DNA of 64,000 nt from Bacillus sp. BA3 (GTDB lineage: Bacteria; Bacillota; Bacilli; Bacillales; DSM-1321): assembly GCA_002835675.1 (NCBI GenBank), contig PIZR01000001.1, forward strand, positions 123,494 through 187,493, in the 5' to 3' direction. The position numbers and the translations under genes are program-made. Under the pieces are notes generated by a model that did no database searches, was not told where the DNA came from, and was given only the letters and a program-made list of their open reading frames with translations. This document shows, piece after piece, positions 1-16,970 of the stretch; position 1 is the first letter of the stretch, and every line of letters begins with the position of its first letter.

Positions 1-2
1 GA

Positions 3-902
3 GAGTATATATATATACATGAACTAGAATGGTCAGAATATATAGTTGTTGCTTCAAGAATGAGTCAAGAATATTATTCAGTAGCGTCCCTAAGAGAACA
101 GTTTTACAAAACTAGAGGAAATTATAGAAAATTAGTGAATGATAATTCAATTTGTGAAAATAGTAGTAGGAGAATAACGAGAGATTTAAGTAATTTCTAT
201 CTTTTTGATTTTTTTATAAATAATAAGTATATAAGAAGTTTACCTAATATAATCCGCGATGTAGTAAAAGATTATTTGTTTGCAGTTATAGATACACATT
301 CAATAGTTGGACAACTTAGCATGCTTGAAATGGAGAAGATAAGAGGACGTTTTGCAAGAAATGAATTACTTAACTCTGTTTTGTTAAGGGTAGAAGAATT
401 AATTATTGTGCAGAAAGATTTAGCTTCAATTATAAAAGATGAAGATCACATTTCTCTTTTAGAGGAAATAAAAAAATATCATCATCCTAAAGAATTCCAT
501 CTAGATAGAGTGGAAAATATTATTAATGAATATAAAATAGTTAACCTTAATACATCAGAAAAGAATAAACTAATTGATATTATTGAAGGATGGATAGACT
601 GTATTGATTTTATATGTATAACTAGACAGGAAAAAGAAAGTGGCATAAACAATATATCTTTTCACTGTAATATTTTTACGTCTAGCCATTATACAGAACC
701 AACTTTATTTGTGAATGGTAGAGGTTTTGCATGGAATCATGAGTATTATGGAGAAAGAGTTGCGTTAAAAGAATACTTGAATGACAAAAAAATTCCTTTT
801 ATCGAGATGGAATTAGAAAAAGTATTAAATAAACATATTTTTACAGAGTATCCTTATCAAAAAATGATGTTGGGATTATTATTGCAAAAGTATGGTTATT
901 AA
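3..902 (+). CDS. Unknown protein, 5' end cut by window edge
   Basis: An AT-rich reading frame is open from the first bases of the window to a TAA at 902. An ATG lies at 60, but the frame continues upstream of it without a stop and there is no good ribosome binding site there, so the true start is probably outside the window. About 299 residues are visible. I recognise no domain. The C-terminal third contains an NGRGFAWNHEYYGER stretch and several aromatic and charged residues; there is no signal peptide or membrane segment. It belongs to the same AT-rich accessory stretch as the genes that follow. Confidence 0.6.
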   Translation, partial: EYIYIHELEWSEYIVVASRMSQEYYSVASLREQFYKTRGNYRKLVNDNSICENSSRRITRDLSNFYLFDFFINNKYIRSLPNIIRDVVKDYLFAVIDTHSIVGQLSMLEMEKIRGRFARNELLNSVLLRVEELIIVQKDLASIIKDEDHISLLEEIKKYHHPKEFHLDRVENIINEYKIVNLNTSEKNKLIDIIEGWIDCIDFICITRQEKESGINNISFHCNIFTSSHYTEPTLFVNGRGFAWNHEYYGERVALKEYLNDKKIPFIEMELEKVLNKHIFTEYPYQKMMLGLLLQKYGY

Positions 903-1110
903 CGACTAGATAATAAAAACTGACTAGTTAATCTAATGTTAGTGAGTTTTTTTATGATTGATATGGGGAGCCTTTCATTAATTGTTCAAAGCTAGATTTA
1001 ATTACAGTAGATTTCGTTAGATTGAACTATTAATAGTCGTAGTCAAAAACTTATTCAAGCATTCATTAAACAGTCGAAAAAGCCTTATAATTATTTGATA
1101 AAAAGGCTTT

Positions 1111-1145
1111 CTTTGGAGAGGTTGGTTCGACTCTCACATTCGCCA
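1111..1145 (+). other. Degenerate ssrA (tmRNA) 3'-end-like sequence, possible attachment site
   Basis: The segment begins CTTTGGAG, contains GGTTCGACTC and ends CGCCA, the order seen at the 3' end of Bacillus tmRNA (CTTTGGA, GGTTCGACTCCCAC, CTCCACCA). The acceptor part no longer pairs properly and there is no tmRNA body upstream. Integrative elements often use the ssrA 3' end as attachment site, so this may be a worn att site of the island. The comparison with tmRNA is from memory. Confidence 0.3.
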
Positions 1146-1395
1146 ACAAAAGCGCCTCTAACAATTTCGATTGAAAGCCTTTAAAATCGTAGTTCAGAAT
1201 ATTTCAATCTAAGCGATGGGAGCTTTAGGATTTTCCTAGGACTCTTTTTTATCGAATGGGATACAATGTAATTAAGTCTCATTGGGTAAATCTTACTCGT
1301 CCTTACTGCGACAAGGACTCAAGGTGATTACTAAGGATATTTTCTAAAGCCTCTCGTTTTTGAAAGAGACATAAATTAAAATATACTTATATTAA

Positions 1396-1539
1396 GTATC
1401 ATTCGATGGAATTTGTAGAGCCAATTTAGTAGATCATTTTGGTGCCAAAAAAATTGAGAGTTCAACTGGGAAAAAACTTTTTTCTAGTAATCCCGAAAAT
1501 ATGTTACTGGAAAGGATTAAAAAGAAAATGAGTGATTAG
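1396..1539 (+). pseudogene. Coding-like remnant, 3' end of a lost gene
   Basis: A start-less open frame of about 47 residues ends at TAG 1537-1539. Its composition looks like coding sequence (LVDHFGAKKIESSTGKKLF followed by a charged tail), and a terminator hairpin follows at 1577-1600. I do not recognise the family. It is best read as the 3' tail of a gene whose front was deleted. Confidence 0.25.
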
Positions 1540-1576
1540 TTAATTATGCTTACCAAATTATTGTACATAATACATA

Positions 1577-1600
1577 AAAGTACCCTATAGGGTGCTTTTT
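1577..1600 (+). terminator. Rho-independent terminator
   Basis: A 9-bp stem (AAAGTACCC / GGGTGCTTT with one G-T pair) has a TATA loop and runs into TTTTT. It lies just after the coding-like remnant ending at 1539. Confidence 0.55.
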
Positions 1601-1716
1601 AAATATGTAGCTGACCTATAAATACGAACGGGTGCTTTAGTTCAATATTTGGATTATCAGCACCAACTAACGGAGCTCACAGTATGTGCTATCTTATATT
1701 TGTTTAAAAGCCTTAA

Positions 1717-1872
1717 CTATTTTCTACTAATCAGTAAAGCTCGGATTCTGTGATCATCTTTTGCAACATGATTAAGAAGTATTTTTTCAATAAATCTTCT
1801 AAACCATAATTCTGATTCAGATGATAATTCTTCAGTGCAACTGTACTTGTGTCTTGGATTTGTTAAGTCAAT
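1717..1872 (-). pseudogene. Coding-like remnant on the minus strand
   Basis: On the minus strand an open frame of 51 residues ends at 1717 and has no start codon. It reads as a plausible protein C-terminus (NPRHKYSCTEEL, then SELWFRRFIEKILLNHV, then DDHRIRALLISRK). The frame closes upstream at about 1873. Family unknown; it converges on the plus-strand remnant at 1396-1539, which suggests successive deletions in this stretch. Confidence 0.25.
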
Positions 1873-1990
1873 TTAGGTATGGTATATAATTCCTAAATAG
1901 TTATTTAGAGGTATAGTAATGTATACTAAAGATAGAAGGTTAGGTTAGGTTAGCTAATCTATTCGCAATATTATAGAGGGAGTCTTATAA

Positions 1991-2773
1991 ATGCGTAAAA
2001 TTATATATTTTGATGAAGGTTCAGCAACAGATATTTTACTAATTGAACATGGAGGACAAATTTCCTCAATTGACGAGAAGAAAGGGACGGTTAGTCTGAA
2101 GGGAGAAGCTGGTGGAGAGGTTTCAGCAGGGGCAAGTACTGGATTTTTAACTATTGTTAAAGCTGCTTTTAATACAAAAGTAAGTGCTAATGTTTCTCAT
2201 AGCAGGGATACACTGGCCACCAAAACAGTCACAAATACAATTTTTACTGATTTTGTTGCTCTAAAGGAAAAATTAGTAGAAAAGAAAACAATTGAAATAC
2301 TCGAAGGATATAAAGTTACAGCTTTAAAAGATTCTTTTGCATTTATGAAAATGTATGCACCATATATGAAAATATTTAGAGAAGGTTCAGAAGCAATAGA
2401 AGCACTTAGAGATCTTGATTTACAAAATGTTGATGAAATTCTTACAGCAGCTAAGGGATACTATGAAATGGTTGCTTATAATAACGAAAAGGAAATTGTT
2501 CTTCGTTTTAACATTAATGCATTTAAAAATGCGTACATGTTAACCGACTTATCCAAAATGAACTTAACCTTTATTGCAATAGAGGTTGGGGATTGTAATA
2601 AAGAAGAACTTATTATGCAGAATGAACTTTCAGGTGATTCTCCTTCCATTGAATCTTTGGATATAAACGCTATTATGGGGAATAATCCTTCCACTCAATC
2701 TGGTGCAAATACAAAGTTAAAACTATATGATGTTATTTTAGCTGGGATAGGTGAAATTCAAAATGAAAATTAA
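1991..2773 (+). CDS. DUF6414-like protein, first gene of a pair with an AAA+ ATPase
   Basis: This 260-residue protein starts at an ATG preceded by AGAGGGAG. Its N-terminus (IIYFDEGSATD, then GGQISSIDE) resembles the family I know as DUF6414; that assignment is from memory. Residues about 33-60 are rich in Gly, Ala and Ser with alternating polar and non-polar positions (GEAGGEVSAGASTGF), followed by a Thr/Ser-rich stretch. The C-terminal half is mixed alpha/beta without recognised catalytic residues. There is no signal peptide. The stop overlaps the start of the next gene by 11 bases, so the two are translationally coupled and likely act together. The biochemical role is unknown. Confidence 0.65.
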   Translation: MRKIIYFDEGSATDILLIEHGGQISSIDEKKGTVSLKGEAGGEVSAGASTGFLTIVKAAFNTKVSANVSHSRDTLATKTVTNTIFTDFVALKEKLVEKKTIEILEGYKVTALKDSFAFMKMYAPYMKIFREGSEAIEALRDLDLQNVDEILTAAKGYYEMVAYNNEKEIVLRFNINAFKNAYMLTDLSKMNLTFIAIEVGDCNKEELIMQNELSGDSPSIESLDINAIMGNNPSTQSGANTKLKLYDVILAGIGEIQNEN

Positions 2774-3854
2774 TATTATCTACGGCCCAATGAAAGAATT
2801 TAACTCGAAAATTCCAACTGAAGATACTATAAGTCTTTCAGAAATGGTCAGATGGAGTGATGCTAGGCGCTCTAATCCAATTGAAGATGAATTAATTGGT
2901 ACTTATAATTATCTAACGGTTTCTACTGAAGAATATGGTGGAGTAACAGATGCATTTATCGAAAGATTTATCATCAGTATTTTGATTTATCAAAATCATT
3001 TAGGGTATACAGAAATCTTCCTTCATAATCCGCCAACTCGTATCTATGATCAAATACAAATTTATAAAGACCATTTTGAACTTTCAATTCAGCATTCATC
3101 CTACCCAAAGACATCTAAAGATGCTCTTAAAGAAATTAAAGAGAACTTTGATGGAAAGATTTTAGGTCAACCTCAAGCAAAAACAGAAATTCTAACTGCA
3201 CTATATGACTTATCAAACAATCACGACACTAAACCTAAAATAATTATGCTATACGGTCCTCCGGGTGTAGGGAAAACCGAAACTGCTCTTTTCATAAATC
3301 AAGCTATTAACCAAGAAAATAAACTTCTAAGAAAGCAATTTTCTATGTATCATAATGATAGTTTTTACAGCTATATTTTCGGAGATAGAACTAATTCATT
3401 TGCAAAAGATTTAATAGATAGAGAATCTAATATTATTTTATTAGATGAATTTGATAAGTGTAACAAGGTTTTCTTCAGTGCCTTTTATCAATTATTCGAT
3501 GAAGGAATATATGAGGATAAATACTATAAGGTAAATTTACAAAATGCAGTTATTCTGTGTACATCAAATTATTTATCAGAGTCTGATATAAGAAAAAATC
3601 TAGGTGAAGCCATATTTTCTCGATTTGATGCTTTTATAAACTTTCATTCATTTTCAAATGAGGTAAAAGAACAATTAATTGATAGAATTTATGACGAAGA
3701 AATCGCTAAATATTCTTCTTCAGAGATTGAAATTATTTCAAGTATCAATATTCCGAATTTACTAAAACAGTATTTATCTTCTATAAATAATGCACGTGAT
3801 ATAAGGAGATATCTAAAACAAATGATTGCTACACCGTTGATTGAGTATATTTAG
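2763..3854 (+). CDS. ClpA/ClpB-type AAA+ ATPase
   Basis: The protein has 363 residues from ATG 2763; a GTG at 2751 is also possible but badly placed relative to GGATAGGTG. It has an N-terminal region of about 130 residues without recognised motifs, then one AAA+ module: Walker A GPPGVGKTE at about 165, Walker B IILLDEFDK with Asp near 228, sensor-1 Asn in CTSN near 269, an arginine-finger-like FSRFD near 287, and sensor-2 ARDIRR near 344. The Walker B to sensor-1 spacing is typical of the Clp/HSP100 (AAA_2) class, but there is only one module and no protease-docking loop is evident. It overlaps the DUF6414-like gene, so it may remodel or control that partner. Confidence 0.8.
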   Translation: MKINIIYGPMKEFNSKIPTEDTISLSEMVRWSDARRSNPIEDELIGTYNYLTVSTEEYGGVTDAFIERFIISILIYQNHLGYTEIFLHNPPTRIYDQIQIYKDHFELSIQHSSYPKTSKDALKEIKENFDGKILGQPQAKTEILTALYDLSNNHDTKPKIIMLYGPPGVGKTETALFINQAINQENKLLRKQFSMYHNDSFYSYIFGDRTNSFAKDLIDRESNIILLDEFDKCNKVFFSAFYQLFDEGIYEDKYYKVNLQNAVILCTSNYLSESDIRKNLGEAIFSRFDAFINFHSFSNEVKEQLIDRIYDEEIAKYSSSEIEIISSINIPNLLKQYLSSINNARDIRRYLKQMIATPLIEYI

Positions 3855-4014
3855 TACAAAAGTACAGTGTTGAATTAAACCCTCAATTATTCTTAGGTTC
3901 CTAAATAATACAACGGCTAAGCATTCAATGAGCTGAAATTATAGGAGTAAATCATTGATTATCTTATGAAAATAGTAAGAACAAATTAAAAAAATTATTG
4001 TAGGGGGTTATCTA

Positions 4015-4903
4015 ATGGATTTAGTTTTAGATAAAAGAGAAGATAAGGCACTTGCTCAATTTTGCAGTTATATTAGTATTCCAGTTCGGAGAGCAATTAG
4101 GGAGAATGGGAATGGTTGGATTGAACAGGTTTTAAATTGTGTTGGATTATCAACTTTACATGATGAATTTGAACATTATTTTGAACCTAATAGCTTTAAT
4201 AGAGGTTATAAAAAATCCTAATGAATACTTTAATCCGGAATTAGGTATGATGAAAATCCTTTTTCAGATAAAATCAGGTAAGGAAATTGTTAATGAATTC
4301 TTAAATGAAATTTTCAAGAGATTAAAAGGTATTGAAATTGAAGAGGCGCAATTTGAAAAAATAACTTATACATTAAATTTTTTAGGTTACGAGTTAACGG
4401 TATTTGAAGAAGATGATTATGGAAATATCAGTTATTTATTGGGTTATTTATCAATTGGTGAAGTAAAGCGTCAAGAGGATATGACTTTAATGAGAAAAGA
4501 AATCAATGCTATTAATTCAGCAGTTCTTACTCACTATAATGAGGCTCTTGAAACATACAGTAACGGGAATTTTAAAAGTTGTATTGATAATTGTAGAACT
4601 GCCTTTGAAAAATTTTTCTCGAAATTCGATTCTATTAATGAAGATTATTTAAAAGGAATATTAAACGTTACAAATGAGAAGATAATTGATGATAATGGAG
4701 TAGAATTAAGTAGTAGAAATAAAATTTTTAAGTACTGGTTGGATAAGAAAAAAGGTGCTAACAGATATCGCACTTTTGCAATTATATACAGTGCAATGTC
4801 AGGATTAGGAGCGCATGGAGAAGATAACCCAACTCAAGCAGATGCCCTATTGTTTTTGAGAATGACTGAAGATGTATTTTTATGGTTTATCCAGAAAAAA
4901 TAA
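4015..4903 (+). pseudogene. HEPN/Abi_C-like gene interrupted by a frameshift
   Basis: Two overlapping frames make one apparent gene. The first starts at ATG 4015 behind GTAGGGGG and runs to a stop at 4221; the second is open from before 4139 to 4903. The switch falls around 4170-4200 and corresponds to one extra base or two missing. The joined product would be about 295 residues. The C-terminal half (SNGNFKSCIDNCRTAFEKF, then GLGAHGEDNP, then ALLFLRMTEDVFLWF) resembles the all-helical HEPN or Abi_C domains found in abortive-infection proteins. No clean R-x4-6-H ribonuclease motif is visible. Either decayed, a sequencing error, or a programmed shift. Confidence 0.55.
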
Positions 4904-5093
4904 ATTCAATTTTCTAGAATGATAAGTTAACCTAACTTCCGCTTTTAAGTAGAAAACTATTACAAAGAATTAGAATGTAATAATCGGTTAATATGTAACT
5001 AATATTCAGAATAGCTAGCGGTTAGAATTAAAACATAAAACAAATAATTGACCGATGTAATCGAAATTTGGAAATTTGAAAGGAGTTTTAGGA

Positions 5094-5513
5094 TTGCCCA
5101 GTACACATCAAACTAAAAAGTATAATGAATGTACTTACATATTTTCAGACCAACATAGAAACTTACAGAATCGTAATAAATCAGAGTGGAAAATTAGTCA
5201 AGATGAAGAATTTAACTCATTTATCTTAATGTATGATGAGAATTGGATTTTTAATGAGTATAAAGGATGGTCCTTACATAGAATCAATTCTAGAAATGAG
5301 AGGTTAGGAAAAAATAGATCACAAGAATGGGTTAAAATTGCTAAATTTGTTGATAGTACTAAAAATTCTGAGTGGCATGGTTATCCTGTAGATTATCGAG
5401 AATCCATATACGATAAACCACCAACTAGAATATTAAAGGAATGGGTAAAAAAAGGCATAATAAGTAAAAGTCAAATGGGAAAAATCGTAGATAATAGAGG
5501 TTGTGATATTTAA
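5094..5513 (+). CDS. Unknown protein, first gene of a three-gene operon
   Basis: I place the start at TTG 5094, which has AGGAG at 5081-5085 with an 8-base spacer; the open frame extends slightly further upstream. The product has 139 residues and no signal or membrane segment. It begins PSTHQTKKYNECTYIFSD and ends with a conserved-looking block (WHGYPVDYRES, PPTRILKEWVKKG, then MGKIVDNRGCDI). I do not recognise the family. The TAA at 5511-5513 shares its last base with the next ATG, so the two genes are coupled. Confidence 0.65.
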   Translation: MPSTHQTKKYNECTYIFSDQHRNLQNRNKSEWKISQDEEFNSFILMYDENWIFNEYKGWSLHRINSRNERLGKNRSQEWVKIAKFVDSTKNSEWHGYPVDYRESIYDKPPTRILKEWVKKGIISKSQMGKIVDNRGCDI

Positions 5514-6559
5514 TGAGAGCGGTGAATTTAAGAATAGAAGGGGAATATTGGGAATTTTTAATTAAATATAACAAACTATTTTTATGGAATCTTGTTGGGG
5601 AAATTGAGATTTATAATTGGGAAGAAATTTTAAGAAATATTTCTAGTACATACGGTAATTTAATATATAGTTTGTTTAATGGGTCAATGAAAAATAAAAT
5701 ATTTATAGAAAAAGATATTATTGGTTTGACTAGCGATAATAATAATAATGATATATACCTTTCTAAAAACTATTTAGAAAGGTATCTTGAAAAAAATGTA
5801 TTAACTCCTAACGAAGAAGTAATAACCTCCATTAATTCTTATAATGATAATTTAATAATAAATACAGATGATGGGTTATTTATTTCTTTTTTAGACGATA
5901 TGGAGAGGTTTGAAAAAATAACAGATATGCCATTTTACAACATAAGTGTTGGGACATATGGAAGAGTTGCTTTTGCTGGCGGAGAAGAAGGTATATTTGA
6001 ACTATTATTACCACCAAATAATTATAAAGATTATAAGGGGTATAAGGAAAATTTCAGAAATGTAATTAAGAAACATTCGAATAAAACCAGTTGGGTTAAA
6101 AATAACATCTACAGCTCTTCGTATTTTGAAGAGTTTATATTGGATCCTCAAAATCAAAATAAAAAACATTATGACGAAAATCAAATATTCAAACATTCTA
6201 ATAATGAAGAAAAAGCAAAGGTGACTTGGGTAAATAATAATAAAATTTATCGTAAATTAAATTCAAGTAAATTAGAGGAAGTAACAGTAATAGATCTAGG
6301 GGATGGAGAATTGTCTTTTAAATCTAGAGTATTAAATTTCCAAGATTGGAAAGGTGAAATTATAGCAGGCGCAGGAACTGCTTTTGGAACAATAGTTGAA
6401 TGTGAGAATGCTATGGTTATTATTTTTAAAGACACAAGTGTAATGAATATACCGGGTGAAGTTGTGAGATGGAAAAGTTATAGGTCAAATGAGAGGTATA
6501 GTAATATTCTTGGAATTATCTATGACGAAGAGTTAGTTTTATCAGCTTTTAACTATTAA
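5513..6559 (+). CDS. Unknown protein, second gene of the operon
   Basis: The protein has 348 residues and starts at the ATG of a TAATG overlap with the preceding gene. It is rich in Asn, Ile and aromatic residues and has repeated beta-strand-like segments, for example NDNLIINTDDGLFISFL, VGTYGRVAFAGGEEGIFEL and WKGEIIAGAGTAFGTIV, which could be blades of a propeller-like sensor or scaffold. This is a guess from pattern only; I find no catalytic motif. No signal peptide. It is followed after 24 bases by the DUF1643 gene. Confidence 0.65.
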   Translation: MRAVNLRIEGEYWEFLIKYNKLFLWNLVGEIEIYNWEEILRNISSTYGNLIYSLFNGSMKNKIFIEKDIIGLTSDNNNNDIYLSKNYLERYLEKNVLTPNEEVITSINSYNDNLIINTDDGLFISFLDDMERFEKITDMPFYNISVGTYGRVAFAGGEEGIFELLLPPNNYKDYKGYKENFRNVIKKHSNKTSWVKNNIYSSSYFEEFILDPQNQNKKHYDENQIFKHSNNEEKAKVTWVNNNKIYRKLNSSKLEEVTVIDLGDGELSFKSRVLNFQDWKGEIIAGAGTAFGTIVECENAMVIIFKDTSVMNIPGEVVRWKSYRSNERYSNILGIIYDEELVLSAFNY

Positions 6560-6583
6560 TATATTCTTGGAAGAAGGGATAAT

Positions 6584-7249
6584 ATGCCTCCTAGAGACTA
6601 TCCTATTTCAAAGGTGACTTTACCAGCTGAAGTACATCCAGTTAATACTACATACAGGATAAGAGAATCTATAAAAATAACTTTAAATAATAATTATTCT
6701 TCCCGTATAACCTTTATTATGATGAACCCAGCTTTTGCAAATGACAATCAATCTGATGACACGGTTAATGGAATAATTAATTTTATATTTAATAATTCTA
6801 TTCAAATTGTAAATACCAATGAAAATATCGTTGATGTAGGATTTTTAAACGTCGTAAATTTGTTTTCTATATATAATCGCGATTCTAGGGAGTTATGGGA
6901 TGATTTATTGAATATACGCTCTAATAATCAATTAGGAGAAGAAGAGTTCAAAACTTTGTTGGATAATAATATTAACACCATTAATAATGTTATAAATAAT
7001 CATTCTGATTATATTGTATTAGCTTGGGGATTGCCTAATGATATTTACATTAGTTTAGCTCTTTATTACAGACAAATATTTGAAATACAAAAAATTGTTA
7101 AACATTCAGGGCTACCTATTTTTGTTCCACAGACTAATAATAGACCATACTTATCGAAACAAGAAACTCCTTTTCATCCAAATAAAAAACGTTTAACTGG
7201 TTTAGTTAAGGTTGAAATAAATAATTTGAATGAAATAATACCACTTTAG
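6584..7249 (+). CDS. DUF1643 family protein
   Basis: The product has 221 residues, with AGAAGGG before the ATG. It shows the DUF1643 pattern: an early Arg-containing strand, IMMNPAFAND near residue 46, an Asp-Thr pair (SDDTVNG), GFLNVVNLFSIYNRDSREL in the middle, and VLAWGLPND towards the C-terminus. The biochemical function of DUF1643 is not established. As third gene of a tight operon with two unrecognised proteins inside an island, it is more likely part of an accessory (possibly defence) function than of core metabolism. Confidence 0.75.
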   Translation: MPPRDYPISKVTLPAEVHPVNTTYRIRESIKITLNNNYSSRITFIMMNPAFANDNQSDDTVNGIINFIFNNSIQIVNTNENIVDVGFLNVVNLFSIYNRDSRELWDDLLNIRSNNQLGEEEFKTLLDNNINTINNVINNHSDYIVLAWGLPNDIYISLALYYRQIFEIQKIVKHSGLPIFVPQTNNRPYLSKQETPFHPNKKRLTGLVKVEINNLNEIIPL

Positions 7250-7694
7250 ATTAAATTCTTTATACCCTTTACTAATAAATTAGTTATTAATCTATAACAA
7301 ATTATATAAAGTATCCAGTGATTAAATAGATTCTTAGTGAAAAAGAAACTTGTAAAATCTTTTTGAAGGTTAAATTAGTGTTTTTTAGGACTGAGGCTTT
7401 ATAAGGGAACTATAAATGGTAGCCTTTAAAATCACTTTTAGATTAAACAATGCTAACATTTTGCTAACGCCATCCCATAAAAAAACGGTAAATATCTGTT
7501 AAAGATGTTACATCAAACAACATCCCAAACGTTGATATATTGCTCTTTTTACAATAAACGTGAAAGATATTACAAATTTTCACCTTACCGGCGGCACGAT
7601 GTTAGTATAAAAGGGATATTGATAAATAGATGAACCAGAAAATCATCTACATGAAAAATTTTCAAATTTATAACAAGGAAAATAGGGGACAAAT
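7250..7694. other. Intergenic stretch without recognisable genes
   Basis: I examined these 445 bases on both strands and saw only short AT-rich frames. There is no convincing terminator directly after the DUF1643 gene. The stretch ends with the AATAGGGGAC ribosome binding site of the next gene. Confidence 0.4.
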
Positions 7695-8087
7695 ATGGAA
7701 AAGGGGTTCAATAAATATTCTCAGAGTTTTTCTTTGAATTTCAGTCTACTAGATAAAAATCTAGATAGCAATGGTAGGGGAACGTATTATGCAAAATGGA
7801 AAAAAAGATATGATTGTTTAAATTGGGGTAATAATACAAAAATTGAGTGGGATATCAGAAATATAAATAACCAAAGCTTTCAAGCGATGGTGATCCAGAG
7901 AAAGATTGAAAGTTCACTGGAAGAGGAGGCGAACCAGGCATGGTCCAACTTGCCTGAGGATCAACGCCTTAAGAGGGTGGGGTTTTTAGAAAAGACATCG
8001 ATTTGGAAAAAAAACCAGTTTTTCCGTACTTATATCAATGAGCGTTTTATGGAACGGTTGAAAAAAGAAATGGAACTTGGTAAGTAA
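7695..8087 (+). CDS. Small unknown protein
   Basis: This 130-residue frame starts at ATG 7695 behind AATAGGGGAC. The N-terminal half is rich in Asn and aromatic residues (SQSFSLNFSLLDKNLDSNG), the C-terminal half is charged and helical (SSLEEEANQAWSNLPEDQR, then FMERLKKEMELGK). No domain recognised, no signal peptide. It is probably a real gene because of the start site and coding-like composition, and it may be a truncated member of a longer family. It is the last plus-strand gene before the duplicated segment. Confidence 0.5.
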   Translation: MEKGFNKYSQSFSLNFSLLDKNLDSNGRGTYYAKWKKRYDCLNWGNNTKIEWDIRNINNQSFQAMVIQRKIESSLEEEANQAWSNLPEDQRLKRVGFLEKTSIWKKNQFFRTYINERFMERLKKEMELGK

Positions 8088-8285
8088 GTCATGGAAGGGC
8101 ATGCTTTACATTAACATAATTAATGGATAAAGATATTTACAATCACTAATCCAACATATCCACATAAAAACAGTAAATACATCAGTTTTCCATCTTATTT
8201 CATGGTTTCAATTATGGAACTTTACCTGACAACAAAGTTGTATCCACAAAAGTCCTTGCAAACAAGTATACAAGGACTTTTATAA

Positions 8286-8888
8286 TTTACATATCCTGAA
8301 CTGCGGAAATCTATCGGCTGGGTCAGTTCCTCATTAGATCAGGAATATCAGTCACGCCCAAATGATACAGCACTTGAAGTAGTTTTAAGCGGAAAATTTG
8401 CTTCAATTGGATTATATGAGGAAATTACAGAGGATGATATAAAGAAAGCAAAAGCATTACTTGACCAATTCAGAATCAAACTTTTGTCTAACCAATTTAT
8501 CCACACACTCTCTCAAGGTGAAAAAAGAAAAGTAATGATTGCAAGGGCCCTCATGTCTTCACCACAATTATTAATCTTAGATGAGCCTTGCAATGGACTG
8601 GATATTTACTCTAAAGAAGAGCTGTTAACATCTATTGAAGATATGACTGCTGCTGCACCGAACGGCCCAACCATTTTATATGTTACACATCATATTGAAG
8701 AAATTGTACCATCTATAACCCATGCTATGTTAATCAATTCGGGGAACGTTATGGAAAAAGGAGAAAAAAGGGATGTATTAACCGAATCATTATTGGAAAA
8801 GACCTTTCGTGTCCCAGTCAAAGTAGAATGGGAGAATGAGCGTCCCTGGATCCGGATTAAATCCCTGTTATTAAATGAAAAAAAATAA
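8286..8888 (+). pseudogene. YlmA-like ABC transporter ATPase, N-terminal third missing (duplicate copy A)
   Basis: An open frame without start codon runs to 8888. It aligns with the C-terminal two thirds of the ATPase at 17447-18265, beginning at PELRKSIGWVSSS. The ABC signature LSQGEKRKVM and Walker B LLILDEPCNGLD are intact, but Walker A is absent because homology starts abruptly at 8294. Compared with the other copy it lacks the extra T that breaks that one (EEIVPSI reads through here) and carries one extra Ala codon. It cannot hydrolyse ATP without the P-loop; treat it as a fragment left by duplication. Confidence 0.75.
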
Positions 8889-9100
8889 ACCTAGTATGTT
8901 GAAGAGTAAAGTAAAGCAGTCGTAATGGTAAAACTACAAGATGAATATAGATTGCTTTTCATTGGAGGGCCTAATTAAATAACTTAATTTAGTGAGCCAT
9001 AATAATACTCGTTAGGAAATCTTAATTTATCCCAATATGTCGAATGGTAGGTGTCTCTATAAGGGAGTACTATACTTGGCATTGTTATTTGCTCTCAAAC

Positions 9101-9137
9101 AAAAAAGGCGAAGACTAGAAATCTTCTCCTTTTTTTA
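9101..9137. terminator. Terminator between ABC remnant and integrase remnant (copy A)
   Basis: Inverted repeat AAGGCGAAGA / TCTTCTCCTT flanked by an A-run on the left and T-run on the right, so it could serve both the ATPase remnant (plus) and the converging integrase remnant (minus). Confidence 0.65.
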
Positions 9138-9345
9138 ATCCTTTTCACGATAATTGGTTCTTCTCTCTCCCAGCAGTTTCGCAGCCTTTTTAGCCTTCTC
9201 TTGCTCAGGGTTTGTATAGAGGGCAGCTGTTGTGGTTGAAGTATGACCGAGTTGAGTCATCAACAAATGAATATCTCCTGATTGCTCCATTAAGTTCGTC
9301 CCATAGGTATGCCTTAGTTTGTGTGGGGACATAGATTTATTGGAC
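9135..9345 (-). pseudogene. Tyrosine recombinase (phage integrase family), C-terminal remnant, copy A
   Basis: The minus-strand frame keeps the C-terminal catalytic end of a tyrosine recombinase: SPHKLRHTYGTNLM (HxLRHT box), LGHTSTTTAALYTN (LGH box with the nucleophilic Tyr) and a Lys-rich tail. About 70 residues remain, compared with roughly 300-400 in intact relatives. The frame is cut where the duplicated segment ends at 9346. It is not functional and marks a former integrated element. Confidence 0.8.
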
Positions 9346-9429
9346 TAATTACCTTAGCCATAACAGCTTTACCTAAATTGCTTTACTGATTTGCTTCTTT
9401 TAATATTAAATTAAATAGAATAAGGCTTA

Positions 9430-9472
9430 AATTTCCACTATAAATAAAAATATTTATAGTGGGAATTTTTTT
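9430..9472. terminator. Strong AT-rich hairpin with T-run
   Basis: ATTTCCACTATAAATA pairs with TATTTATAGTGGGAAT across a 4-base loop, followed by seven or more T. It separates the integrase remnant from the MORC-like remnant. Confidence 0.6.
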
Positions 9473-9610
9473 TATCCCAAAACCCCATATATAGTGAAGG
9501 CAATTAAGAATAAAATGACACATATAAAATGGTTATTTTTTCACCTTAACAACTTTCAACAAAATATTTGAATTAGACCTGAGGCTAATTCAATAATAGG
9601 AGGAATTGTA

Positions 9611-10299
9611 ATGGAAAACCAAGTAACTCCTCAGACATTTTTCAGGTGGAAAAGGCGCTTGAGAGTTGGCGTGATTCGGGTTTTGATCTGTCAACTGCAA
9701 TAGGTGAGGTAGTTGATAATTCAATAGAAGCCGGCTCTAAAATCGTTAAAGTTGTTCCTTATCAAAATAAAAAGGATAAAAGTATTGAAACCATAATATT
9801 TGCAGATGATGGAATAGGAATTACAGAAATATTAGCACAAACCTTAAAAATAGGTTTTTCCACTCGGTATAATCAACGTAAAGGGCTCGGTCGTTTTGGT
9901 GTAGGGTTGAAAGTTGCTGCCTTAAGTCAAGGTAGAAGAATTGATATTTATACAAAGCCTTTTGGGCAGGAACGATACTATCATGCATATTTAGATCTTG
10001 GATTAATTGTCAGTGAAGAACAAACTCATATCATAGCAAATGAGGTTCAAGGATTCCCAGCAGAATATACTAAACATATGGGGTGGGAAGACGGTGCGCC
10101 TTTTGAATCAGGTACTTTAATTATATGGTCTAAAATTGATCGACTAATGAATGAAGGAAAATACGGGAATTCTGTTAGTGAATCTCTACAGGATTTGACT
10201 AAATTCTTAGCAAGAGCATATCGGAAATTTATCGATAAAGGCTTAGTTATCCAGTTAGATGATAAGATTCTGGATTTATATGATCCCTTAAGTTGTTAG
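9611..10299 (+). pseudogene. MORC/MutL-like GHKL ATPase, frameshifted and C-terminally truncated
   Basis: A good start (AATAGGAGGAATTGTAATG, ATG at 9611) gives MENQVTPQTFF and then loses frame; the continuation VEKALESWRDSG is in the next frame. Restoring one T in the TTTTT run at about 9636-9640 gives one continuous protein. The GHKL motifs are clear: AIGEVVDNSIEA (N-box), IIFADDGIGI (G1) and GLGRFGVGLK (G2). The frame stops after about 230 residues at a point where relatives continue for some 200 more. Such MutL-like ATPases are known partners in restriction and Z1/PD-(D/E)XK defence loci; none of those partners is present. Confidence 0.75.
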
Positions 10300-10323
10300 A
10301 TTATTTCTGAAAGTGATAAAAGT

Positions 10324-10366
10324 AAAAGCGGGAAACCCTGAATTATCAATGTTTTTCCCGCTTTTT
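10324..10366. terminator. Terminator after the MORC-like remnant
   Basis: AAAAGCGGGAAA pairs with TTTTCCCGCTTTT, with a T-run, 25 bases after the stop. The symmetrical A- and T-runs allow use from both sides, including for the small minus-strand gene ending at 10384. Confidence 0.7.
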
Positions 10367-10383
10367 ATCATTTTATATTTTAT

Positions 10384-10530
10384 TTACATATAATCATAAA
10401 CAGAGTCATCAAAATAGAGCCAGTGATAATATTCAATCTGTGAATCTGTCATCCTGGAAATTTCTTTCTCATTGAATTTTTGTTGCTCAATTAATTTCTG
10501 CGATTTGGAATTTCTTTCTACTTGGCTCAT
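10384..10530 (-). CDS. Small 48-residue protein, unknown
   Basis: Not a shadow of another gene: the minus strand has CTATAAGGAGG eight bases before an ATG (10530), a 48-codon frame and a terminator-like hairpin beyond its stop. The peptide begins MSQVERNSKSQKLIEQQ and ends with an acidic aromatic tail (YYHWLYFDDSVYDYM). Such short, charged proteins with an aromatic tail are common in Bacillus but I cannot name this one. A cre-like site lies upstream at 10572-10585, so carbon catabolite control is possible. Confidence 0.5.
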   Translation of the reverse strand: MSQVERNSKSQKLIEQQKFNEKEISRMTDSQIEYYHWLYFDDSVYDYM

Positions 10531-10571
10531 CTTAAATCCTCCTTATAGTATGAGAAATAATATTTAAATAT

Positions 10572-10585
10572 TGAAAACGCTTTCT
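10572..10585. promoter_or_regulatory. cre-like CcpA operator
   Basis: TGAAAACGCTTTCT matches the catabolite response element consensus TGWAANCGNTNWCA except for the last base. It lies 42 bases upstream of the minus-strand small gene, in a very AT-rich promoter region. Confidence 0.45.
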
Positions 10586-11041
10586 TTTTTTTCTTATTTT
10601 TATTATATATCTCAATGTGAGATTAAACAAATATCAAATATAGATGATTTTTCAGGAAATAATATAGAAATGATATTTATCTATTTACTTTGAAGCAGTC
10701 AGTTAAAGAGGCAAGGTCGAATTGCCAAAGCCTGAGTTTTGTTAACGATTAGGGATTTTCTTCAATAAGTTGGACACAAAAAAGTGGGGATTATGCTGCT
10801 TTTAGAGTTTGACCAGCGAAAGCGTAGGGAGTCAGCGAAAGTAGGGGAAAGAAATTCAGCTGAGAGAGGGAACCAAAAGAAGTTTGTTAGGAAGTAGTCT
10901 GTATCGATTTTGTATCTATTTGGAAAATTTCTCTTTATTTTGTAGTGAGCAATTGCGGAAACCAGATAGTCCATAGGTTGCTTTTTACCTATTAACCGTA
11001 GTTGTGTTACTCGTTGATTGGATAATAGCCGGGGAATGAGT

Positions 11042-11315
11042 GAGATCCAGCGCAGCCAGATGTTGATTCTGGATGAATGGGGCTACATGTCGGTCGATAA
11101 AAAGGGCTCTCAACTGCTCTTTCGAGTGATTGCGGACAGCTATGAAAGCTGAGGTTTGATCATTACAACCAACTTGAAATTCTCCAAAAGGGGTTCTGTC
11201 TTCACGGATGACCAGATGGCAGAAGCAATGATTGACCGATTGGCTCATCATGGTATTTACTGTCTTTTAAGGTGAGAGCAATCGAACGAAACATGCACTG
11301 ATGAAAGAGCACTAA
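11042..11315 (+). pseudogene. IS21-family IstB ATPase remnant
   Basis: The translation contains the C-terminal signature of IS21 helper proteins: LILDEWGYMSVDKKGSQLLF, then a stop, LIITTNLKFSKRGSVFTDD, AMIDRLAHHG and, in a shifted frame, HALMKEH. There are in-frame stops and at least one frameshift. The Walker A half and the IstA transposase are missing. It is a relic of an insertion sequence within the duplicated island. Confidence 0.75.
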
Positions 11316-11375
11316 AAGGCGAAGAAGATGAAACAGTAAAGAACACATGGCAATGAAGCAGAGAAGGGAGTAGCT

Positions 11376-11525
11376 ATGAAACATGGCAAAGAGGTTGAAA
11401 AAGTGAAAACTAATACTGAGGCTGCTGAACCAATGACAAAAGAAGAAGTGGATGCAATAGATATCACTATAGATAAAGCAGATACACCATCAACAGAAGA
11501 TGTAATTAAGAAGAATATCAATTAG
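11376..11525 (+). CDS. Small 49-residue acidic protein
   Basis: GAGAAGGGAG precedes ATG 11376 and the 49-codon frame ends at TAG 11525, with a terminator 60 bases on. The peptide is Lys/Glu/Thr-rich (MKHGKEVEKVKTNTEAAEP, then TKEEVDAIDITIDKADTPS). No family recognised. The last bases of the gene and the sequence after it (AAGAATATCAATTAGTG, then a T-rich stretch and GTCTCAA) recur at 19632-19672, where the rest of the gene is absent. Confidence 0.4.
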   Translation: MKHGKEVEKVKTNTEAAEPMTKEEVDAIDITIDKADTPSTEDVIKKNIN

Positions 11526-11583
11526 TGTAAAATTCTTTTTTGTCTCAAAATATAAGAATACTATTGGCAATGAGATACTAATT

Positions 11584-11618
11584 AAAAAAGCCTCTAAGAT
11601 ATACCTAGAGGTTTTTTC
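11584..11618 (+). terminator. Rho-independent terminator
   Basis: AAAAAGCCTCTA pairs with TAGAGGTTTTTT; it follows the small gene ending at 11525. Confidence 0.7.
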
Positions 11619-11968
11619 TGTCTGTCTACGGAGTCCTGGCAAACCGTAAATAGAGTTTCCTTAATTATACATTACAATAAAAGAAATTGATTCAAGAAAA
11701 TGTAAATGTATTTTTATTTTTTTATTCTACAACAAGATTACTTGTTTTTAGTTTTAAATATGTTGAATAAATTCAAGTTTCTTTCCATTCCTTTTATTAT
11801 ATTCTTTAGCTATTAACTTGGAGATAGCAAAGGCTACACAGATTACCCATTATTAAATTCTAAGTAAGTTGGATTAAAACAAGAAATGTTATCTATACTT
11901 CTTGTTTTAATATTTTAAAAGGGGGGAATAGTGGGAAACCATTATTATAGTCATTTAATATTATTTGG

Positions 11969-12010
11969 AATAAGCCTATTCGAGATCACTCTCGAGTAGG
12001 CTTATTTATT
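11969..12010. terminator. Perfect inverted repeat, terminator of the abgB-like operon
   Basis: AATAAGCCTATTCGAGA and TCTCGAGTAGGCTTATT are near-perfect complements with a 4-base loop, flanked by AT-rich runs. It lies just beyond the 3' end of the minus-strand hydrolase operon. Confidence 0.65.
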
Positions 12011-12086
12011 TTTACAAGCAACACCTTTACTTATGGTTCACCGTAATGCATCTAAATGATATTTTTATTTTTCATTGATCAAACTA

Positions 12087-13550
12087 TCAATTAAACAATT
12101 TTTGTTTGTTACCCTTTTGTTTATTTTTCGGAGGGGTAAGGTCTTTTGGAATTAGGGATGTATAAGTTTCCCCGTCGAGTCTTTCAGCTAACTCTTTTTT
12201 AGCATTATCAAGTAATTCTGGGTTTTCAAGAGCCGAAATAGCAGTACATGCCATTGCTTTTCCAGCTAATAACATGGCATCATGGGCGTAGCTTTCTTTA
12301 CCTTGTGCGACAGCCTGCCAAGTATGAAATGGTGTTCCAAACGCCCAGGTGGAAGTAACACATTGTGCGGTTGGAACATTCCAGCTAACATCGGCAACAT
12401 CTGTAGACCCTCCCATAAATGTTTCTTTTTCAGAAAAAGGAACGATAAAGTCGGCAATAGGTCGTTCTGCTAATTGAGAAGCTCCTTGTTTTCCAACTTG
12501 TAAAGCTGCCGCACGCTTCTCCTCGTCAGTCAACGATTCATAGATTGTTTTTGCATAGTCTATATCCTGTTCATTAGCATGAGGAGCTCCTATTTCCTGC
12601 ATATATTGGTGCATCACTTTTTCAAGGGTCATATTTGGAATTAAATTATGGCAGGAACCTTGAATTTCGAAATCAACCTTCGTTTGCGTCATAAGTGCCG
12701 CACCGCGGGAACAGTTAACTACCCTGTCATAAAGCTCTTTTACTTGATCTGGTTTCGGTGCACGGATTAAGTATGTCACTTCCGCCTCAGCCTGAACAAC
12801 GTTTGGAGCCAATCCTCCTGTATTGGTTACAGCATAATGAATCCGAGCTTCATCAATCATGTGTTCTCTCAAATAATTGACTCCAACATTCATAAGTTCG
12901 ACTGCATCTAAGGCACTTCTTCCTAAATGTGGTGATGCAGCGGCATGGGCACTTCTCCCTTTAAATTTAAAGTGTGCATGGATGACCGCATTGGCAGTGG
13001 AGTTCATGACAGCATTCATTGTTGAAGGATGCCATGAGAAGGCAGCATCAACATCTTTAAAAAGACCGTCTCTTGCCATAAAAGTTTTCCCGTATCCACT
13101 TTCTTCTGCTGGACAGCCAAAATATTGTACTGTTCCACCAAGCTTATTTTCCATCAAATAATCCTTAACCGCAATAGCTGCCGCTAAGGAACCTACACCC
13201 AGCAAATTATGTCCACAGCCATGGCCATTTCCATTTTTATTAATGGGCTCGAATGTACTGCTGCGTGCCTGTTGACTTAGCCCTGCCAAGGCATCATATT
13301 CCCCGAGAATCGCAATGACCGGATGACCAGATCCATATGAGGCAACAAAACCTGTTTCAAGACTAGCTATTCCCTTTTTTACGGTAAACCCTTCCTTTTC
13401 CATTGCTTCGCTAAGCAAATCAGCTGAACGGAATTCCTCAAATCTGGTTTCTGCAAACTCCCATATTTGATCACTTAGCTGTGTAAACAAGGTGCGTTTA
13501 TTATCTATTAAATTTGTAATTTTTTCTGATAGGGTAGTCAATTTTTCCAT
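12087..13550 (-). CDS. AbgB-like M20 amidohydrolase (p-aminobenzoyl-glutamate hydrolase type)
   Basis: The 487-residue protein closely matches the AbgB pattern: DQIWEFAETRFEEF near 27-40, VIAILGEYDALAGLSQQA near 78, the metal-binding GNGHGCGHNLLG near 107-118, CPAEESGYGKTF near 145, SAHAAASPHLGRSALDAV near 200, and APNVVQAEAEV. M20 enzymes use a two-metal site to cleave amide bonds; AbgB releases p-aminobenzoate from its glutamate conjugate. No AbgA partner is next to it, so the substrate may be another N-acyl compound. AGGAG touches the ATG, so the in-frame TTG at 13541 may be the real start. It sits 3 bases downstream of an MFS gene in one operon. Confidence 0.85.
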   Translation of the reverse strand: MEKLTTLSEKITNLIDNKRTLFTQLSDQIWEFAETRFEEFRSADLLSEAMEKEGFTVKKGIASLETGFVASYGSGHPVIAILGEYDALAGLSQQARSSTFEPINKNGNGHGCGHNLLGVGSLAAAIAVKDYLMENKLGGTVQYFGCPAEESGYGKTFMARDGLFKDVDAAFSWHPSTMNAVMNSTANAVIHAHFKFKGRSAHAAASPHLGRSALDAVELMNVGVNYLREHMIDEARIHYAVTNTGGLAPNVVQAEAEVTYLIRAPKPDQVKELYDRVVNCSRGAALMTQTKVDFEIQGSCHNLIPNMTLEKVMHQYMQEIGAPHANEQDIDYAKTIYESLTDEEKRAAALQVGKQGASQLAERPIADFIVPFSEKETFMGGSTDVADVSWNVPTAQCVTSTWAFGTPFHTWQAVAQGKESYAHDAMLLAGKAMACTAISALENPELLDNAKKELAERLDGETYTSLIPKDLTPPKNKQKGNKQKLFN

Positions 13551-13553
13551 CTC

Positions 13554-14780
13554 CTAAATTGCGTTATTTTTGAAAGAAGGAACCTCTTTCTTAGTGCGAA
13601 TTAAAAATAAAGATCCCGCACACAATAGAGCAAACATAATCAGCATAATAAAAGCAACTGTATAAGAACCGTCAAAAGCATCGACTAAAAATCCTATTAA
13701 CATCGGAGTAAGAACCCCAGCGAATTGGGCTCCGGTATTAATGAACCCATTTGCAGTGCCTACAACCTCTTCAGACAGCATTTTTAATGGAGCTGAGATG
13801 ATCAGAATAATATTAAACGACATGAATACAGTAACAACACTTTGATAGACAGCAAACATTGCTATATTTGGTGCATAAGCCATTAAATATAGAAAAACCG
13901 CCGTTAATACTGCAAATACAGCTGCAATTACCTTATCTTTCCCTTCAGGTAATTTATCCAAAATATAGCCGCTTACAATCATTGCAATAATTCCTGCAAA
14001 CGCTGGAATAGCTGAAATATACCCGACTGATGTTAAGTCGAGATGGCGTTCCGCTACCAAATAAGTTGGCATCCACGCCATTAATCCCCATTGCACTGCA
14101 TAAATGGCAAAATAGGCAATGAACAAATTCCAGATAATCGGAGTTTTTAAAACTTCTCTTAAGGGTGCTTTATTTTTTGAAGGGTTTTCACTTTTTCCTA
14201 CAGTTGAATCTTTCCGCTCTTTTATAAAAAATACATAGAGGAAGGCAAATATAATACCAATGGCACCCGCAATATAAAAGATTGTTCTCCAACCGATACT
14301 TTGCATGGACTGGGTACCTATTATTGGTGTTATTACCCCCATAATTGTCCCAGAAGTGAGCATAAAGGACATGGCACGGCTACGTTCATTTTGTGGAAAC
14401 CAACTCGCAATACCTTTTGACGCAGATGGAAAAAAGCTGCCTTCCCCAAGTCCAAAAAGAAATCGAATGAGGATTAAGGACATGAAGGACCACGCCATTC
14501 CTGACAAAATCGTGAAGACGGACCAAGCAAAAACAGCCATGATAATGATTTTTCGGAAACCAAACCGATCTGCGAGCCACCCACCGGGAATTTGCATTAA
14601 GGCATAACCTGCAAAAAAGCTGCTTAAAACAATTCCAGTCTGGGAGGCACTTAAATGTAGATCCTCTGAAATACCTAAAATCGCATAATTCATAAAAAAT
14701 CGATCAAAGTTTCCAATTGACCATCCTAAAAATAGCAAGATGATAATGACATACTTCCAGTGCGACAATTTAGATACCAT
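13554..14780 (-). CDS. MFS transporter, ACS (anion:cation symporter) type
   Basis: This 408-residue protein has about 12 hydrophobic segments and the MFS signature GGWLADRFGFRK after helix 2. The early NFDRFFMNYAI segment and the RFLFGLGEGSFFPSASKGIASWF segment, with its acidic residues in helix 4, are typical of the ACS family that imports organic anions such as hexuronates and phthalates. It is the first gene of a two-gene operon with the AbgB-like hydrolase and probably brings in that enzyme's substrate. It is a paralogue of the MFS at 45574-46824. The ATG follows TAGGAGGAATTAT. Confidence 0.85.
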   Translation of the reverse strand: MVSKLSHWKYVIIILLFLGWSIGNFDRFFMNYAILGISEDLHLSASQTGIVLSSFFAGYALMQIPGGWLADRFGFRKIIIMAVFAWSVFTILSGMAWSFMSLILIRFLFGLGEGSFFPSASKGIASWFPQNERSRAMSFMLTSGTIMGVITPIIGTQSMQSIGWRTIFYIAGAIGIIFAFLYVFFIKERKDSTVGKSENPSKNKAPLREVLKTPIIWNLFIAYFAIYAVQWGLMAWMPTYLVAERHLDLTSVGYISAIPAFAGIIAMIVSGYILDKLPEGKDKVIAAVFAVLTAVFLYLMAYAPNIAMFAVYQSVVTVFMSFNIILIISAPLKMLSEEVVGTANGFINTGAQFAGVLTPMLIGFLVDAFDGSYTVAFIMLIMFALLCAGSLFLIRTKKEVPSFKNNAI

Positions 14781-14915
14781 ATAATTCCTCCTAGCGAAAT
14801 TAGTTGAATTCTGTATAATTATAAAAAATTCTAACTATTCAAACAATGTTTGACTCTATATAATAATTACATAAACTATGTGGAGGTCTACATATTCCTA
14901 TGGAGGTTGTATAAA
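14781..14915. promoter_or_regulatory. Divergent promoter region of hydrolase operon and regulator
   Basis: The 135 bases between the divergent genes are very AT-rich and contain a short palindrome CAAACAATGTTTG at 14840-14852 and a TATAATAATTA stretch. The arrangement suggests that the PucR-type regulator controls both directions; the exact operator is not proven. Confidence 0.4.
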
Positions 14916-16970
14916 GTGGAAACATTGATGAAAATTAAACAATTTTTAGTGGGTGACTGCTGCTTTTCCCATTTTCAGCTGTGGCAAAGCCTAAATGGAT
15001 TAGATTTTTCACTTGTTTTATCTCTTCATTTTGACAAAGAAACACCCATACCAGAAAGATTTTACAATGAAAAAATTCGCACCCATGAAAATTACACCGA
15101 TATTTACTATCATTATGTCAATCATACAACCATTGTCCTCAGGCTCAGCAAATCATCCGTATTAAAAATCGAAAGCAAGCAAAAACTTAAAACGATAATC
15201 GATTTACATTACTTGCAAGTAATGCTAGATAGAGAAAAATATATTAGGAACAAAATGATGGAGAGCATCCGTGATATATCCGTACACGAAGATTTAGATG
15301 ATTTGTTAAAAAAAATATTAGAAAATGCCTTGTCTGTTATACCTGTAGCTAATATGGGAGTTTTATGGATATACGAACCAAGCTTAGACGTGCTTTTTCC
15401 TAAAGCATGGACAGGCGGTCCTAATGAAGAAATTGGAAAAATGAGAATGAGGGTTGGGGAGGGAATTATCGGAAAAACCTTTAAAGATAATAAATCTTTT
15501 ATTCTTACAAATATAGAGGGAATTCTCTCAGAATCCTCTAATATTTCACCAGGTAATCTTTTTCATTTGTATAACTCTGTCCAATTTGACGATTTACAAT
15601 CCATTATTTCAGTGCCAATAAAGGTTGAGGAGAGTACTTTATGTGTTTTGATCGTCTACCAAAATGGTGCTTATCCTCTTTTAACGAAAGATGATCAACA
15701 ACTGTTAGAAAGTTTTTCCGATCAGGTTTCTATCGTTTTAAGAAATTCGAAGCTATACCAAAATCTAAAAAAACAAAATGACCTTTTAATTCAACGAGAT
15801 ACCATACACAATTCTTTAATAAAACTGTCACTTCAAAGTAAAGGGTTACAAAAAATCGCAAATGAAATAAAAAAGATGATAAACCATCCATTAATGATAG
15901 TAGACTTAACAGATGATCAATTATATTCAAGTCCAACCCCATGGAAGGTGGAGCTTCCTTCAGAGCTGATAAAAATAAATACAAAAATACCAACTCAATC
16001 TTTTTTTACTGAGTCTTATAATAGTCAGTCATTGTATATTCACCCCATTATTGCTATTGATGTTCCAATTGGAATAATGGCCGTAGAAATGGAGGAAGAT
16101 GACCTTTTTCCTTTAAACAAAATGATTATTGAACAGGCAAGCTCAGTAATTGCATTAGAGATTATCAGAAAACAAACATTAGTGGATTCTTTTTATCAAA
16201 AAACAAATGATCTATTCAATGATTTTATTCAGAGCCGAGAGTATAATCTGATACGAAAGAAGGCCATTGAGCTTAGAATTAATCAACATCCCTATTATAT
16301 GGCGATCGTAATTCATCTACATCCTCATGCAGATTTCCATTTTGTTAATATGCAAATGCACAAACTAATTGCCCAAATTAAAAGGCATTTAGGAATATTT
16401 GTTTCACTCGTTTTTGGTTATGGAAATAAAGTGACGTTGATATGCCAATTTAATAACTTTGCAGATCAAGATTATGTAAAAAAGAGACTAGCGCTTATTC
16501 ATACCAACTGGAATAATGTGCATGAAGAATCCCTGAAAATAGGGATGGGTACCTGCTACCCAAGTATGGAGAATATAGCAAAAAGTTACTCCGAAGCGGA
16601 TAAAGCCCTTTCTTTTCTGATCTCGAGGCAGCTTAAAAATATCGTGAACTATCAGGATATTGGCATAAATCATCTTTTTATTCACCAACCCATTGATGAC
16701 TTGAACTCTTTTGTAAATGAAATTTTTAATCCCTTCCAATCTGATAAAGACGGTACTTTGGATTTAGAACAAACCCTGCTTGCCTATATGGAGAACGACC
16801 GTCAAGCTACACAAACAGCCAAAATTTTGCATATCCATGTTAATACTTTATATCAAAGGCTAAAAAGGATCGAAGAAAAGCTTCAAATTTCCTTTTCAAA
16901 TCCAGAAGACATTTTAAAAGTTCAACTTGCATGTTATTTAAGAAATTCAATCGTCTCACTAGACTCGTAG
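14916..16970 (+). CDS. PucR/CdaR-type transcriptional regulator with GAF domain
   Basis: I choose GTG 14916, which has GGAGG nine bases upstream, giving 684 residues; the open frame extends further up without a ribosome site. After about 100 N-terminal residues there is a GAF-like sensor (around residues 130-280, with VPIKVEESTLCVLIVYQ). The middle contains a diguanylate-cyclase-like, non-catalytic region typical of CdaR proteins, and the C-terminus carries the PucR helix-turn-helix (QTAKILHIHVNTLYQRLKRIE). Such proteins activate neighbouring catabolic genes in response to a metabolite. It is divergent from the MFS/AbgB-like operon, its likely target. Confidence 0.8.
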   Translation: METLMKIKQFLVGDCCFSHFQLWQSLNGLDFSLVLSLHFDKETPIPERFYNEKIRTHENYTDIYYHYVNHTTIVLRLSKSSVLKIESKQKLKTIIDLHYLQVMLDREKYIRNKMMESIRDISVHEDLDDLLKKILENALSVIPVANMGVLWIYEPSLDVLFPKAWTGGPNEEIGKMRMRVGEGIIGKTFKDNKSFILTNIEGILSESSNISPGNLFHLYNSVQFDDLQSIISVPIKVEESTLCVLIVYQNGAYPLLTKDDQQLLESFSDQVSIVLRNSKLYQNLKKQNDLLIQRDTIHNSLIKLSLQSKGLQKIANEIKKMINHPLMIVDLTDDQLYSSPTPWKVELPSELIKINTKIPTQSFFTESYNSQSLYIHPIIAIDVPIGIMAVEMEEDDLFPLNKMIIEQASSVIALEIIRKQTLVDSFYQKTNDLFNDFIQSREYNLIRKKAIELRINQHPYYMAIVIHLHPHADFHFVNMQMHKLIAQIKRHLGIFVSLVFGYGNKVTLICQFNNFADQDYVKKRLALIHTNWNNVHEESLKIGMGTCYPSMENIAKSYSEADKALSFLISRQLKNIVNYQDIGINHLFIHQPIDDLNSFVNEIFNPFQSDKDGTLDLEQTLLAYMENDRQATQTAKILHIHVNTLYQRLKRIEEKLQISFSNPEDILKVQLACYLRNSIVSLDS

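Follow-up and report, generated by a model that had tools for sequence, protein, structure and literature searches.

A predicted Dodola anti-phage gene pair of divergent sequence in a defence-rich region of Bacillus sp. BA3

The dolA-dolB locus

Two overlapping open reading frames in a 64,000 nucleotide stretch of Bacillus sp. BA3 DNA (contig PIZR01000001.1, positions 123,494–187,493, termed here the window) are predicted to encode a DUF6414 protein and a Clp-type AAA+ ATPase (Table 1). Judging from profile matches and gene arrangement, the pair is almost certainly Dodola, an anti-phage system of two genes, in complete form. The first amino acid (aa) sequence matches the PADLOC DolA profile PDLC03837 with an E-value of 3.7e-74 over profile positions 5–257 of 258, and the second matches the DolB profile PDLC03838 over positions 2–369 of 375 (E-value = 2.3e-122). 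Analysis with Pfam shows DUF6414 (PF19952) at aa positions 1–253 of DolA, scoring 93 bits where the cut-off is 25 (E-value = 2.8e-26), and AAA_2 in DolB (E-value = 3.8e-12). The initial annotation, made from the sequence alone, had presented the two genes as a candidate undescribed system, which the PADLOC matches rule out. Several of its other observations are borne out, i.e. the gene coordinates, the 11-base overlap, the AAA+ motifs of the second protein, the DUF6414 resemblance, the AT-rich location and the presence of a two-gene DUF6414 and Clp-type ATPase module in a defence-rich island.

The window pair is like Dodola in the near full-length matches to both profiles and in gene order, strand and tight spacing, and no essential difference was found. 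The nearest relatives met are about 49% identical in DolA and about 48% in DolB. DolB also matches the PADLOC candidate family PDC-M37B, far more weakly than the DolB model (E-value = 1.7e-25); in one survey (PMC11811056) a PDC-M37 call is handled as a duplicate of Dodola. No named NCBIfam or PHROG family was found for DolA up to an E-value of 1.

Table 1. Features of the dolA-dolB locus, with positions in the window.
Feature	Position	Strand	Description
dolA	1991..2773	+	DUF6414 protein, 260 aa; PADLOC DolA and PF19952 matches
dolB	2763..3854	+	Clp-type AAA+ ATPase with a single module; 363 aa if translation starts at the ATG at 2763
dolA/dolB overlap	2763..2773	+	11 bases common to both open reading frames
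Shine-Dalgarno-like GAGGGAG ahead of dolA	1976..1982	+	8-base spacer; read directly
Shine-Dalgarno-like AGGTGA for dolB, within dolA	2749..2754	+	8-base spacer; read directly
Gly/Ala/Ser-rich segment of DolA, residues 33–60	2087..2170	+	ends in hydrophobic FLTIVKAAF

The location of the second Shine-Dalgarno-like site inside dolA fits translational coupling of the two genes. An in-frame GTG at position 2751 is a possible alternative start of dolB and would extend the overlap to 23 bases. No terminator-like sites were found in positions 1540–4100, the 13 promoter-like sites there show no excess over shuffled sequence (mean 13.9), and an Rfam search of positions 1–16000 gave no match at the gathering score. 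The G+C fraction is 0.27–0.32 across window positions 1–8000 versus 0.32–0.47 in nearly all of the remainder, where a single 1-kb bin is at 0.30.

Relatives and co-inheritance

Related loci and genomes are designated by L and G numbers. In each of the 17 pairs with two open genes, the start of dolB falls in the range from 11 bases upstream of the dolA end to 2 bases downstream of it. The 11-base overlap of the window is found in three other pairs of the 17. The DolA and DolB distance matrices of these complete pairs are correlated with an r of 0.94, and none of 5000 permutations gave a value as high. Thus, with the tight gap and the correlated distances, dolA-dolB is a unit inherited as a module. 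Left out of these counts are L028, whose DolB is divided between two frames, L046, where neither gene is intact, L038, which meets a contig end, L035 and L036, with no DolA found upstream, and G511. The starts of some sequences were moved inward to match that of the family, i.e. DolA of L048, L050, L051 and L063, and DolB of L037, L048 and L051. The trimming sets the gap for the latter three loci, where the longest frames give overlaps of 38 to 47 bases; the L037 record annotates the trimmed start.

Among DolA-type loci, which also number 17, DolB is directly downstream in 16, with broken or split genes in L046 and L028, and in the seventeenth, L038, the contig ends 156 bases past dolA. One of these loci, L037, was obtained through its DolB. 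DolA was found in 17 plasmid records, of which six were taken, and plasmid loci L035–L037 were added through DolB. L035, with DolB in pieces, and L036, with a transposase gene just upstream, have no recognisable DolA. Across the phylum, three of 398 sampled genomes have DolA (E-value up to 1e-10) and the same three have DolB beside it (E-value up to 1e-40), the window's own included. DolA is present in two of 36 genomes of the genus and is absent from the other genome of the window's species. A search of genome contigs with DolB yielded a single hit, a remote ATPase. In viral contigs searched with a DolB alignment, the first of the best 80 loci (L064, 36% identity) was taken as DolB, and the remaining 79, at 23%–31% identity, were not counted as such.

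DUF6414 genes outside Dodola

DUF6414 as a Pfam family extends beyond Dodola. In a sample of 397 genomes of the order it is present in 22, at 24 places. A DolB-like ATPase adjoins it at eight of these (the window's included, with one pair broken), and at the other 16 no DolB is alongside. Thus the expectation that homologues of the first gene would be accompanied by the ATPase holds for the DolA type and fails for the family at large. The 16 places are not independent, with L056 and L061 being partial matches and L058 and L059 two copies in one genome.

The DUF6414 proteins without DolB share PF19952 with DolA, and some match phrog_9699 or phrog_16607. By eye, a Y-x-D-like motif at the N-terminal end and a hydrophobic strand at the C-terminal end can be made out in most. 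None of the eight tested among the 16 places has a PADLOC match. At L055, L057, L058 and L059 such genes lie near what we take, from the starts of the proteins, to be recombinase-like and repressor-like genes, as in prophage cargo; of these loci L055 and L057 were searched, and both match phrog_16607, a family of unknown function. In another such case, at L043:2717-4973, the DUF6414 gene has no dolB, and 25 bases beyond it lies a gene for a 464 aa protein that matches PADLOC DitA (E-value = 2.7e-14), possibly a different partner of DUF6414.

The DolB protein

The DolB sequence displays Walker A at aa positions 165–172, an aromatic residue at 204, Walker B at 225–229, sensor-1 N269, the arginine finger R287 and sensor-2 R345. 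These ATPase motifs are complete in all 17 DolB sequences, with the exception of sensor-2 (16 of 17). Residue N89, in the protein's own N-terminal part, is also invariant. Most fold matches cover residues 118–363 against one Clp module; the list is filled by the AAA+ module and gives no fold for the N-terminal part (residues 1–110).

DolB differs from the second AAA+ module (D2) of ClpA, ClpC and ClpB in having a single module, its own N-terminal part and a shortened pore loop 1 without GYVG, and in having no ClpP-docking segment. It also differs from the full-length ClpB/Hsp104 disaggregases, in which a middle domain accompanies two AAA+ modules, by its length of 363 aa with one module. The ClpP-docking loop of ClpC sits between sensor-1 and the arginine finger. 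The ClpC segment 662–690 has no counterpart in DolB, where this stretch is uniformly 22 residues long in the 17 sequences, counted by alignment column. An [ILV]G[FL] tripeptide occurs there in three of them (L032, L033 and L037), as part of an LGxxxxR element and not within an insert. DolB is probably an ATP-driven protein remodeller that acts independently of ClpP.

The DolA protein

Fifteen residues are invariant in 17 aligned DolA sequences: K3, F7, D8, G22, Y157, R172, F173, N174, Y182, D186, L187, V199, G200, D247 and A251. The most hydrophobic nine-residue stretch lies in a C-terminal strand of the VYDVILAGV type in 16 of the 17, L051 being the exception.

The initial annotation had pointed to a Gly/Ala/Ser-rich segment that could insert into membranes or form fibres. 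The segment is present, although in the window protein itself it stands only weakly above chance: the richest 28-residue window for these amino acids is at positions 21–48, which overlaps the annotated residues 33–60, with 50% Gly+Ala+Ser (shuffle p ~0.04). In all 17 aligned sequences, which are relatives and not independent samples, the richest window begins within residues 21–62, and this recurrence makes the segment more convincing. Its sequence varies among relatives and its place recurs. Searched by sequence for a relative of solved structure, DolA gave a single match, a cement protein, at an E-value of 0.47. Cytolysin rows in the DolA fold list had a probability of 0.02 and were disregarded.

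Genomic surroundings

The setting of the pair we read as a defence island. In the 20 kb that ends at the window start (L152), nine proteins were scanned. One with an SNF2 helicase resembles PbeA in its first quarter (E-value = 3.7e-63), one is like the metallo-beta-lactamase-fold partners of the DRT and LmuA/Avs1a models (E-value = 3.3e-15 and weaker), and one is an HNH protein (E-value = 9.8e-6); SRA and DndB matches are below the Pfam cut-offs. L152:2074-4776 encodes a bacterial ROCO GTPase (LRR, Roc, COR-A and COR-B) in the same defence-rich stretch. Three consecutive genes on one strand at L152:7164-13487 encode proteins of 821 aa (sigma-70 region 4), 431 aa (weakly ParB-like) and 859 aa (a PLD/SNF2 helicase, partly PbeA-like), possibly a multi-gene defence system.

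Downstream of dolB, one apparent gene lies in two overlapping frames at window positions 4015–4903 (4015–4221 and 4139–4903) and is therefore probably broken; the second frame weakly matches PD-T4-4_B of PADLOC (E-value = 0.0036). The 217 aa protein at positions 9646–10299 matches the N-terminal part of MzaB, a protein of about 500 aa (PADLOC E-value = 6.9e-17, NCBIfam 3.4e-20), and is probably what is left, in truncated form, of an MZA-type system. Positions 8294–9355 and 17673–18719 are two copies, 94% identical, of a roughly 1-kb repeat that contains an ABC-ATPase fragment. Neighbours of related pairs include AbiD (L029), GajA (L063), a type IIG restriction enzyme (L032) and a ThsA/SIR2-like protein (L050). 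They belong to ten neighbours picked by eye, with four strong defence matches, three weak and three none, which is not a rate.

No transfer RNA (tRNA) genes were found in the window or L152. A string read by eye as resembling a tRNA 3′ end, at window positions 1116–1145, has a single occurrence in the genome of the window and none in G024 with three mismatches allowed, thus no attachment site is shown. Of the two flanks, the left has a match in both G024 and G001; the right-flank match in G024 is about 93 kb off, on the other side, and there is therefore no clean empty site.

Published observations on Dodola

Dodola is said to have been first described by Millman and co-workers in 2022. Among the papers listed by a literature search, which covered few subscription journals and no bioRxiv preprints, there was no mechanistic study of Dodola, DUF6414 or DolA/DolB. 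Two papers are drawn on here. In the first, the dolA-dolB pair is described as a two-gene system shown to act against B. subtilis phage SPP1 (PMC11514479). The same text gives a Clp-like hexamer fold to DolA, yet a ClpB domain to DolB; the names look swapped in that passage, because the Clp-like protein is DolB by Pfam, PADLOC and fold matches. In the second, Dodola is broadly protective in S. thermophilus, against all streptococcal phages tested, and one vector carrying it gave no protection (PMC12322248).

Possible mechanism

We infer that DolB remodels a client without degrading it, the client being either DolA or something that DolA brings. The following chain of events is proposed tentatively. 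One coupled message would yield DolA and DolB in a fixed ratio. DolB would form a Clp/Hsp100-type AAA+ ring whose client is not passed to ClpP, and would use ATP to remodel DolA as its dedicated client. In the uninfected cell DolA would be held soluble and inactive; a phage cue would tip the balance, after which DolA, remodelled or set free, would halt infection, perhaps by oligomerising or by entering the membrane via its small-residue-rich segment. That DolA is both client and effector is likewise a tentative assignment, slightly preferred in view of the wide occurrence of DUF6414 without DolB and of the slower growth seen with a chromosomal copy of Dodola.

A number of points weigh against this proposal. 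The contact between DolA and DolB is presumed. No recognised catalytic motif was seen in DolA, including among its invariant residues. The DolA structural model, built from four aligned sequences, is poor, with a mean predicted local distance difference test score (pLDDT) of 44.8; the score is about 19 at the Gly/Ala/Ser-rich segment, to which no structure is assigned and where so shallow an alignment carries little weight. A Foldseek search with this model gave nothing below an E-value of 0.3 and is uninformative at such confidence. The canonical GYVG pore motif is found in none of the 17 DolB sequences, thus threading is not assured, though the aromatic residue at position 204, kept in all 17, may be compatible with it. 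In PMC12322248 the growth delay is put down by the authors to metabolic burden at an ectopic locus, and mechanism and abortive phenotype are both entered as “Unknown”. According to the same paper, Dodola or Gabija placed in the chromosome protected cells almost completely at most of the multiplicities tested, a result that direct defence fits at least as well as suicide. In PMC11514479 Dodola is among the strain-specific systems with minimal impact on the phages assayed.

A second possibility ranks close behind: DolA may be a sensor or adaptor that binds a phage protein and hands it to the DolB ring for unfolding, giving direct defence without suicide. The protection against every streptococcal phage tested that PMC12322248 reports agrees with this, and the near-complete protection at most multiplicities reported there speaks for it and moved our estimates of the two readings closer. 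Dedicated adaptors are also common among Clp-type ATPases, and the N-terminal part of DolB, with its invariant N89, could dock DolA. However, no phage target is known, and the 16 of 24 DUF6414 places without DolB suggest a function of the family's own.

It is unlikely that DolB itself is the effector, burning ATP or indiscriminately wrecking host proteins after DolA senses infection. Its conserved ATPase motifs would permit this and depletion of ATP or NAD is a common defence output, but Clp-type ATPases turn over more slowly than the depletion effectors known. That the two genes are a toxin-antitoxin-like or housekeeping pair with no defence role is very improbable. No result favours it, although there is decay in L035, L036 and L046 and minimal impact on phages in one study; relatives are reported to protect B. 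subtilis from SPP1 and S. thermophilus from its phages, and the distribution in the genus is scattered.

Returning to DolA as client and effector, a wider and rather improbable extension is that DUF6414 proteins are soluble-to-membrane effectors. The small-residue-rich segment, with its hydrophobic centre, would become either a hairpin that inserts or the core of an oligomer; a dedicated ClpP-free AAA+ motor would arm or disarm it in Dodola.

Significance

Dodola is already described, and the window adds one divergent sequence to it and nothing decisive on mechanism. The analysis removes a false claim of novelty and places a divergent, intact Dodola pair in a defence-rich island. The motif comparison, together with the DUF6414 proteins that have no DolB, yields concrete, testable hypotheses on how Dodola works. 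If the proposed switch is true, Dodola would be a case of an immune effector controlled by protein unfolding and not by cleavage or a nucleotide signal.
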